A stretch of 37,910 nucleotides of DNA, taken from positions 1-37,910 of the forward strand of contig CAIQWN010000030.1 of NCBI GenBank assembly GCA_903875555.1, read 5' to 3'. Source of the stretch: an uncultured bacterium (GTDB taxonomy: Bacteria; Patescibacteriota; Minisyncoccia; Phycocordibacterales; UBA5272). A program made the translations under genes and the position numbers. The notes under the pieces were generated by a model, which saw nothing but the letters and a program-made list of their open reading frames with translations, made no database searches and was not told the DNA's origin. This document shows, one piece after another, positions 31,030 through 33,687 of the stretch (the first letter of the stretch is position 1; each line of letters starts with the position of its first letter).

Positions 31030-31100
31030 ATTGAAGTCAAATTCTTGACACCTGCTTAGGCAGTTTTAAACAAGTTGTACCTTGATAAAGGAGAATGATG

Positions 31101-31883
31101 ATGCCAGATAATAATCTGATCACATCAAAGCAACAAACACGTATTGTAGACCTTGTTTCAGCAGAAGCAAGGAATGTAACCCTCGAAGCACTCGACAAGA
31201 TGAATCTCGAAAGTACGGTAGCGCAAGATAATATCATCACCAAGGGTGGCGATTTTCAAGCACTGCTTACCACTGGTTTTGCTTCTGTCGTGGCTTCTGC
31301 TCTCAACAAGATGTCTGGGCGGAAACACCCACAAACTGAACCGCTCGAGCAATACTTCGCTGAAGTTTTGGGTTACACCCTCGACCTTTCTGGTGTTGTG
31401 TTTCCCGAAAAGGATGGCTTTGTCACTTACGTGGCGGTGCCGTCTGACCTTGATGAAGACCAAATCTTCAGTCGTATCACTACGCACTTCAAGGTTGGGC
31501 AATACGCATACCAGTCGCCAGTCGCAAGCAACATCAACCGCGAAGTAAAGCAGAAACGTCCGCAAGGGCTTTATGTCTTCGCACACGCAGGTGGTGACGA
31601 GCCTGATGCGAAGCATCTCGGCAAGTCCTACGACGACGCAATGGCGGTCAACATGACTTTCATGAATCCCAAGGAATATCTCTTGGCCACAGGCTTCCAT
31701 CGCTTTATGAACAAGGACCACTTCATGGATGTGAAAGGATGGACTCGCACATCCTCTTTGTGGTCCGCTGGCTACTTGGTGGACGGTTACTGGGATCCGA
31801 GCGATGGCGAGCTTGACCTCTGCAATGGCTATCGTGCCCATCGCGGTTCGGGCAGCGGTCCTCGTGAGCTGTTTCTGGGTTAA
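31101..31883 (+). CDS. DGR variable (target) protein
   Basis: A 260-residue cytoplasmic protein (no signal peptide or membrane helix) whose last 40 residues (220-259) are encoded by the variable region. Of three consecutive ATGs (31095, 31098, 31101) I take the third, 7 bases after AAAGGAG. The C terminus begins LWSAGYLVDGYWDPSDGELD and is likely the exposed face of a C-type-lectin-like fold, as in other DGR targets; YLLATGFHRFMNKDHF lies before it. Relative to the template, 15 residues vary (223, 225, 228, 232, 235, 237, 239, 241, 244, 246, 247, 249, 251, 252, 257). The gene is clearly more GC-rich than its neighbours, suggesting transfer. The ligand is unknown. Confidence 0.85.
   Translation: MPDNNLITSKQQTRIVDLVSAEARNVTLEALDKMNLESTVAQDNIITKGGDFQALLTTGFASVVASALNKMSGRKHPQTEPLEQYFAEVLGYTLDLSGVVFPEKDGFVTYVAVPSDLDEDQIFSRITTHFKVGQYAYQSPVASNINREVKQKRPQGLYVFAHAGGDEPDAKHLGKSYDDAMAVNMTFMNPKEYLLATGFHRFMNKDHFMDVKGWTRTSSLWSAGYLVDGYWDPSDGELDLCNGYRAHRGSGSGPRELFLG
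31758..31877 (+). repeat. DGR variable region (VR)
   Basis: These 120 bases align without gaps to 32162-32281. There are 18 differences; at 17 the template has A and the VR has G (9), T (4) or C (4). The one exception is G at 31815 versus T at 32219. The matching ends are TTGTGGTCCG and GTTTCTG. Confidence 0.93.
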
Positions 31884-32161: not shown

Positions 32162-32281
32162 TTGTGGTCCGATGGCAACTTGGTGAACGGTTACTGGAAT
32201 CCGAGCAATGGCAAGCTTTACCTCAACAATGGCAATCGTGACAATCGCAATTCGGACAACGGTCCTCGTGAGAAGTTTCTG
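32162..32281 (+). repeat. DGR template repeat (TR)
   Basis: The 120-base donor copy of the VR. It contains 31 adenines, 17 of which differ in the VR. Read in the VR frame it has ten AAC/AAT codons, which cannot mutate to stops by adenine changes in the first two positions, as is typical of templates. It is noncoding here, 343 bases upstream of the RT start. Confidence 0.93.
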
Positions 32282-32286
32282 CACAT

Positions 32287-32311
32287 AAACCCGACTACTT
32301 GGTCGGGTTTT
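32287..32311. terminator. Hairpin at the TR 3' flank / avd terminator
   Basis: AAACCCGAC and GTCGGGTTT form a 9-bp stem with loop TACTTG, 6 bases after the TR, and overlap the last avd codons. It can terminate avd or mark the TR RNA for the RT complex. Confidence 0.6.
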
Positions 32312-32682
32312 GTGTTATATATTTTATCCATCCATTTGTCATTTTTGATATTTCAATTAACACGCCTTCAATTCTAAAATATGTTTTATCGTTTATGATT
32401 TTTAATTCATATTCTGTGCGAATTAAATGTTTTAATAATTCAAGTGATGTTCTTACGTGTTTAAGTTTTTCTAATTTATCGATTTTGTTTTCAAATGACG
32501 CACTTATAACATTATTCATAACTTCGAGAGTTATGTTTTCTATATGAGTATGAATACCAAGTTTATCTCGTTTCGTTAATTTGTTTCCAGTTTGATACAC
32601 TGTTGCATATAATTGTTTTACAATATGAATAATAGAGATATCAGTAGTTGTTCGGGGGGGGGGTAATTCTAACCTGTTCCAT
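32295..32682 (-). CDS. avd: Avd-like four-helix-bundle DGR accessory protein (frameshifted by G/C run)
   Basis: Accessory variability determinant: a basic four-helix protein that binds RT and template RNA. The conserved frame (from about 32650 down) reads IIHIVKQLYATVYQTGNKL, then RDKLGIHTHIENITLEVM, LLKHLIRTEYELKIIND and the family-typical C-terminal IEISKMTNGWIKYI. From ATG 32682 (MEQVRITPP) the frame enters the ten-base C run and hits a stop after 13 codons; with nine C it continues into the conserved frame, giving 128 residues. As assembled, only a GTG at 32600 would give a 101-residue form without the first helix. An extended -10 (TGTTAAACT) lies 9 bases before ATG 32682, supporting that start. 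Opposite orientation to the RT is unusual. Confidence 0.75.
32608..32613 (+). promoter_or_regulatory. -10 box before the RT start
   Basis: TATAAT ends 11 bases before ATG 32625, close to the leaderless-type spacing of the neighbours. It supports 32625 as the RT start and lies inside avd on the other strand. Confidence 0.4.
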
Positions 32683-33687
32683 AATGTTTCTAGTTTAACA
32701 AATCTTTTCGATGCTTGGAATGAATTTAAAAAAGGAAAGAGAAAAAAGAAAGATGTTGCACTCTTTGAGCTTCATTTAGAAGAAAATATTTTTAATTTAC
32801 ATAAAGAACTTCGTAATAAAACATACAATCATAATCCATACGAAGATTTTTATGTTTGTGATCCGAAGCGAAGACATATTCATAAAGCAAATATTAGAGA
32901 TAGGGTAATGCACCAAGCACTTTTTAGAGTTTTGTATAAAGTGTTTGATAAACATTTTATTTACGATTCGTATTCATCGAGAAATGATAAAGGAACACAT
33001 GCTGGTGTGATTCGTCTTAATAATGCTATACGAAAAGTAAGTAAGAACTGGAAGAAAACAGTGTGGGTTCTTAAGTGTGATGTGAGAAAATTCTTTGATA
33101 GCATCGATCATAATATTTTACGAGAGTTGATTTTACAAAAAGTAGACGATAAAGAAATTCTTTGGCTTATAGATATTATATTTTCAAGTTTTGAAAAAGA
33201 AAAATGTAAAGGACTTCCGCTTGGGAATGTTACAAGTCAGTTATTTGCAAATATTTATTTAAACGAACTTGATCAATTCGCAAAACACACTCTAAAGGCA
33301 AAACATTATTTTAGATATTGCGATGATTTTATAATTGTTCATGAAGATAAGAAGTTTTTGGAAATTGTAATTAGAAAGATCGAAGAGTTTTTGAAAAATA
33401 ATTTAAAACTTGAACTTCATCCAAACAAAGTAGAGATACGCAAAGTTTCTCAGGGTATAGATTTTTTAGGTTATGTGATTTTACCTCACGCTATTGTGCT
33501 TCGTACAAAAACTAAAAGAAGAATATCTAGAAAAATTAAAGAAGGTGTAAAACTTTATAACAAAAAACAAATCTCAAAAGAATCTTTTAGATCTATGATT
33601 ACATCGTATCTTGGTGTTTTTTCACACTCTAGATCAAGGAGGGCGACTGATTATTTAAATGAGATCGTTAATGTTTTATCAATTTAA
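32625..33687 (+). CDS. DGR reverse transcriptase (frameshifted by a ten-G run)
   Basis: Copies the template RNA into cDNA with adenine errors. Conserved order in one frame: LTNLFDAWNEFKKGKRKK, VCDPKRRHIHKANIRDRVMHQ, LKCDVRKFFDSIDH (first catalytic Asp), LPLGNVTSQLFANIYLNELD (LGxxxSQ, typical of DGR RTs, at 33220-33240) and FRYCDDFIIVH (YCDD, 33316-33327), then DFLGYVILPH. From ATG 32625 the frame reaches stop TAA right after the ten G (32654-32663); with nine G it joins the RT frame, giving 353 residues with SGGGNSNLF. No ATG, GTG or TTG lies in the RT frame between the run and 32908. So the gene is off as assembled unless slippage or frameshifting occurs. Confidence 0.85.

Follow-up and report, generated by a model that had tools for sequence, protein, structure and literature searches.

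The DGR of BPP-1 (mtd-avd-TR-brt) carries all of its parts on one strand, has no repeat at the start of avd, and holds a priming RNA in the TR-brt spacer. Both Avd and the RT are needed for retrohoming, and in the reconstituted BPP-1 DGR inactivation of Avd, bRT or the TR cut repair to ~1e-9 (PMC12875486). The same 2026 paper terms the natural regulation of DGRs an open frontier. DGRs also occur in Patescibacteria (CPR), as RT clade 2 of Roux et al. 2021 (PMC8144416). In Neisseria and Campylobacter, SSR contingency genes (e.g. PMC5084427, PMC8437040) carry poly-G/C or short repeats in their first codons, with a unit that is not a multiple of three, and are turned ON or OFF by frame; the genes so switched are surface or modification genes. 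DGRs of Patescibacteria and SSR phase variation are each already known. At the locus described here the two are quite probably joined, such that SSR-mediated phase variation would control the mutagenic machinery of a DGR, namely avd and, in the clade of this locus, avd together with the RT.

The DNA analysed is a stretch of 37,910 nucleotides (the window), which is contig 30 of a 714-kb host genome. Its close relatives are named Nomurabacteria, which indicates that the host is a Patescibacterium. The features of the element, in positions of the window, are as follows.

31095 to 31883, plus strand: DGR target gene, an open reading frame of 262 amino acids with the VR within its C-terminal region
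31758 to 31877, plus strand: VR, a 120-nt direct repeat of the TR, 102 of 120 positions identical
32162 to 32281, plus strand: TR, 120 nt, the template for the VR
32287 to 32310, plus strand: terminator-like hairpin 3' of the TR, with the avd stop codon inside it
32295 to 32682, minus strand: avd, start ATG 32682 (PF22296, PDB 4dwl/8ub7, frame table)
32608 to 32613, plus strand: RT -10 box TATAAT, 11 nt 5' of ATG 32625, its place kept in the window's clade
32625 to 33687, plus strand: DGR RT, start ATG 32625 (PF00078, frame table)
32625 to 32682, unstranded: head-to-head overlap of 58 bp, first codons of RT (plus) and avd (minus)
32654 to 32663, unstranded: G10 tract, read as C10 from the avd strand; a slippage switch is proposed here, within the opening codons of RT and avd

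The presence of an RVT_1-type RT beside a TR, of adenine-confined TR/VR differences and of Avd identifies the element, on the evidence of its parts, as a DGR. The RT matched PF00078 in Pfam (E = 2e-25), and tblastn matched it to BPP-1 brt (E = 2e-37). Of the 18 mismatches between TR and VR over 120 positions, 17 fall at TR adenines (p = 2e-11). The minus-strand protein matched PF22296 (bAvd) with E = 7e-10, a score of 39.4-39.7 bits that lies just below the curated cut-off of 40, and its best matches in a structural library, PDB 4dwl (Bbp7, E = 0.03) and 8ub7 (Avd, E = 0.19), are both weak. PF22296 was, moreover, matched by 14/14 aligned relatives. Together these matches identify the minus-strand frame that stops at 32295 as an Avd. 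The target protein had no Pfam match in a profile search. The element thus shares with BPP-1 the RT, an Avd of the 4dwl/8ub7 fold family, and a TR/VR pair with adenine-specific differences. It most likely belongs to the Patescibacteria DGRs of RT clade 2 (PMC8144416), with which it has hosts and element type in common. Two more 23S-rRNA-IVP / four-helix-bundle proteins are encoded in the host genome (G000:C1:15788-16105 and G000:C37:27740-28045), and the loci fetched around them contained no RT.

An earlier note on this DNA had placed avd antisense between TR and RT, with its stop codon 13 nt from the end of the TR. Both the arrangement and the distance are correct. The orientation is also as unusual as had been claimed: in BPP-1, bbp7/avd, TR and brt share one strand, whereas in the window avd is antisense and its junction with the RT carries an SSR. 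In nine phage DGR records from outside the phylum, BPP-1 included, an avd or four-helix gene, wherever one is annotated, is on the RT strand, and these records carry no repeat at the DGR. To compare gene order more widely, we combined RT searches over the family, order, class and phylum with the fetched loci and obtained 235 distinct RT loci, 229 of which had a detectable avd. In 225 of the 229, avd lies antisense and head to head with the RT; the loci are kin to each other and were taken from the best RT matches, so that this count and those below are not independent observations. The arrangement is a lineage-wide layout and not an oddity of a single locus. Nomurabacteria, Taylorbacteria and Levybacteria are among the named relatives. 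Five relatives came from a search of genome contigs, one of which duplicates the G003 record, and the viral contigs searched held no close relative of the element.

The two start codons proposed earlier, ATG 32625 and ATG 32682, do face each other across an overlap of 58 bp. They are not, however, in frame with their own genes, as a G10 tract in the overlap, which had been overlooked, shuts both in the assembled sequence. The suggestion that -10 boxes stand at leaderless distance from both starts is borne out by the relatives. Of 211 loci, 52 have a -10-like hexamer that ends 7 nt 5' of the avd ATG (23 at the next highest offset, against a background of 4.5), and in the window's clade a TATAAT ends 11 nt 5' of the RT ATG. 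Shine-Dalgarno-like motifs precede the avd ATG in only 6/211 loci. Given the -10 box at 7 nt and the near absence of such motifs, avd likely starts leaderless, as the note had guessed.

The G10 tract at 32654-32663 is the sole G/C run of at least 7 in the window. With the 10 G of the assembly both ATGs are out of frame, and the RT frame and the avd frame each stop after 13 codons. According to the frame table, 9 or 12 G would leave both open, giving an RT of 353/354 and an Avd of 128/129 amino acids, while at 7, 8, 10, 11 or 13 G both are closed. The Avd domain frame itself is open from ~32633 down to 32295, and neither gene contains a further frameshift or stop. A GTG at 32600 would give an Avd of 101 amino acids without the first helix turns. 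G9+ tracts number exactly three in the 714-kb genome, and every one of its three DGRs has one of them where avd and RT meet.

The same place is occupied by slippage-prone sequence in most relatives. A simple repeat was found in 151/225 junctions, compared with 18/4500 (0.4%) equal-sized windows elsewhere in the same loci, and G/C runs of at least 8 numbered 129 in the junctions compared with 3 in the remaining ~1.05 Mb. The junction repeats are mostly G8-G14 (127 loci), followed by GA (13), CT (4) and GT/TG (3), with one T run, CTGTC x7, TGTCC x8 and ATTG x7 as rarer forms. The unit length is never 3, 6 or another multiple of three, as in the contingency repeats of Neisseria and Campylobacter. 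Since the type of unit varies while its place and slippage-prone nature are kept, and multiples of three are avoided, slippage itself appears to be what is conserved, and selection evidently acts on slippage and not on a peptide or a given sequence. Presence of the repeat is strongly inherited, requiring 24 changes on the RT tree compared with 62 in shuffles. About one third of the junctions (74/225) are repeat-free, and the switch is therefore not essential to the system.

The assembled repeat lengths behave as would those of contingency loci. The avd ATG lies 5' of the tract in 147/151 repeat loci, and thus the repeat is within the 5' coding region. The assembled length puts this ATG in frame with avd (ON) in only 41/151 repeat loci (27%), compared with 65/74 repeat-free loci (88%; Fisher p = 1.2e-18), with one assembly sampled per species. 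Gain or loss of one unit opens avd in 147/151 repeat loci. The ON/OFF state shows no phylogenetic inertia: it required 35 changes on the RT tree, against 35.9 with shuffled labels, and is in other words random. In 33/110 OFF loci an in-frame start, GTG or TTG in 30 and ATG in 3, is present beyond the tract and might give a shorter Avd.

Whether one protein or two are affected depends on where the RT begins. An RT ATG 3' of the tract (median distance 18 nt) is present in 73 repeat loci, and a GTG or TTG takes its place in another 15; in all of these the repeat would switch avd alone. Control of avd alone would suffice, given that retrohoming in the Bordetella system depends on it. In the other repeat loci, including the window, the RT start is 5' of the tract. 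There, avd and RT are open at the same length in 29/33 informative loci, where 1/3 would be expected, and a single tract read from both strands would accordingly switch both proteins together in the window's clade.

These observations can be arranged into a mechanism. Divergent and facing, avd and RT would begin at or near ATGs with little or no leader, and the opening codons of avd, like those of the RT in the window's clade, contain the G10 tract. Slippage during DNA replication would add or remove G residues, and tract length would consequently vary within a population. Cells with 9 or 12 G would make both proteins and could run mutagenic retrohoming. At other lengths both frames would stop within ~25 codons and the element would be silent, as in the 10-G consensus, with loss of Avd and RT protein in such OFF cells. 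In most other Patescibacteria, where the RT starts past the repeat, avd alone would be switched. The population would then be a mixture in which ON cells diversify the target and OFF cells keep a working variant, presumably with a benefit to fitness. Extended to Patescibacteria broadly, we consider it likely that a random repeat switch at the facing avd/RT starts produces heritable diversifying and non-diversifying cell states.

Several other explanations could account for parts of these data, the leading two being slippage in the course of expression and an additional influence on the RT promoter. Slippage might occur during expression rather than replication, with RNA polymerase or the ribosome slipping at the repeat to supply a constant low dose of Avd and RT at any tract length in the DNA and no heritable switch. 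In other systems long homopolymers are known to make polymerases slip, and this process would equally leave the assembled lengths random as to frame. We regard it as unlikely, given that di-, tetra- and pentanucleotide repeats are poor substrates for it, yet are typical of DNA slippage switches. Somewhat less probable is that the tract tunes the spacing or strength of the RT promoter, i.e. transcriptional phase variation, and not the frame. In the 73 loci with the RT ATG 3' of it the tract does lie near the RT -35/-10 region, but in the window's clade it is 3' of both the RT ATG and its -10 box, and the position of the avd ATG 5' of the tract in 147/151 loci points to the frame; promoter tuning may act in addition to frame switching. 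It is very unlikely that the true tract is G9, misread as G10 in sequencing or assembly, and that both genes are intact. Homopolymer length can be wrong in single assemblies and 9 G would make both frames perfect, but the tract is conserved and is of another type elsewhere, and dinucleotide and longer units behave alike. In-frame lengths were found in 33/127 G tracts and in 8/24 other SSRs, a similar share that argues against homopolymer error and is far below the 65/74 of repeat-free junctions in like assemblies. A poly-proline or poly-glycine protein feature was considered and ruled out by the occurrence of GA, CT, GT, CTGTC and ATTG at the same place together with the random frames; a G-quadruplex or other sequence-specific role was ruled out by the variety of units there and, again, the random frames.

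The earlier note had offered a different model, in which the RNA 3' of the TR pairs with avd mRNA and the pairing determines how much template there is relative to accessory protein. TR (plus) and avd (minus) are indeed convergent and 13 nt apart in a layout that is conserved, and any read-through past the TR would be complementary to avd. The pairing is, however, unsupported, and we find the model improbable, because a terminator-like hairpin stands directly after the TR in the window and in the relatives. This hairpin (32287-32310) starts 6 nt after the TR and has a T-rich tail (-18.5 kcal/mol, z = -4.66). Comparable hairpins follow the TR in 137/184 relatives but were present in 27/552 control segments, and their sequences differ. 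The TR RNA thus most likely ends before avd, whereas in BPP-1 the corresponding spacer carries the priming RNA. The RT has its own promoter box, a TATAAT just before its start, and so would need no read-through from the TR. Nor does the antisense model explain the repeat and frame statistics. The structure prediction that the note had suggested for the TR-RT spacer RNA gave a fold somewhat better than that of shuffles (z -2.2), but most of the signal is that of the hairpin after the TR. The symmetrical stem of the hairpin may serve both convergent transcripts. An Rfam search for known structured RNA returned sub-threshold chance matches only. Finally, the locus could be a decaying pair of pseudogenes, as both frames are broken as assembled. 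This is extremely unlikely. Between the window and G003, both OFF as assembled, pN/pS is 0.10/0.59 for the RT and 0.17/0.60 for avd, which indicates purifying selection on both genes and hence recent function of RT and avd in the two lineages. Adenine-specific VR changes are, moreover, as frequent in OFF loci, which average 17.6 TR/VR mismatches with 94% of them at A, as in ON loci (18.3, 95%), and the window's RT and avd are free of other frameshifts and stops.

Phase variation by the repeat differs from that in Neisseria and Campylobacter insofar as it would act on a targeted hypermutation machine, with one tract for two antisense genes. In the literature searched, which covered titles, abstracts and hit counts and had the 2017 CPR DGR survey of Paul et al. 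outside its scope, a repeat switch on a DGR is unreported. The searched text of Roux et al. 2021 (PMC8144416) makes no mention of avd, its orientation, or a repeat switch. Should the proposed switch be real, it would answer the question of regulation in a bacterial lineage that is among the richest in DGRs, and a single element would combine two known generators of diversity, namely SSR phase variation and adenine mutagenesis. A random subset of cells would be ON for mutagenesis, and turning it OFF again would preserve a good variant. Metagenome reads already available could easily be scored for tract length as a marker of the state of each DGR, and an RT or avd gene that is called broken in a CPR assembly may be OFF and not dead.

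Some further observations concern individual loci. The closest relative (L005, on G003:C17) has the same TR-avd-RT module, with 81% identity in the RT and 71% in avd, and different downstream genes (gatC/gatA-like). Its VR seems displaced by ~1 nt, a change that would put the C-terminus of the target out of frame. The assemblies are interrupted exactly at or near the tract, by N gaps or contig ends, at the avd/RT junctions of L191 and L250 and at the contig ends of L030 and L065, the kind of break expected of a population in which tract lengths are mixed. Locus L286 (G017:C28:1-5000) combines a TR-like stretch and an avd with a G11 tract but lacks an RT, at whose expected place another gene starts, and is likely a DGR remnant. 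Rare long C runs near two DGR loci that lack a junction repeat (L154:2604, C13; L155:642, C10) perhaps mark other phase-variable genes. A non-DGR contig (L285, G003:C37) ends in C10 and has a second G10, each of which adjoins a similar GGG(E/I)-leading frame. In the host genome and a sister genome, three DGR RTs (L015, L016 and L017, on G000:C20, G000:C7 and G003:C22) have extra sequence inserted near residue 178 of their RT domain. In L015 and L017 the insert is an in-frame copy of an ATTCCC...GGGAAT (VIPAQAGI-like) repeat, and it is at this point that many of the RTs found at phylum level are split.
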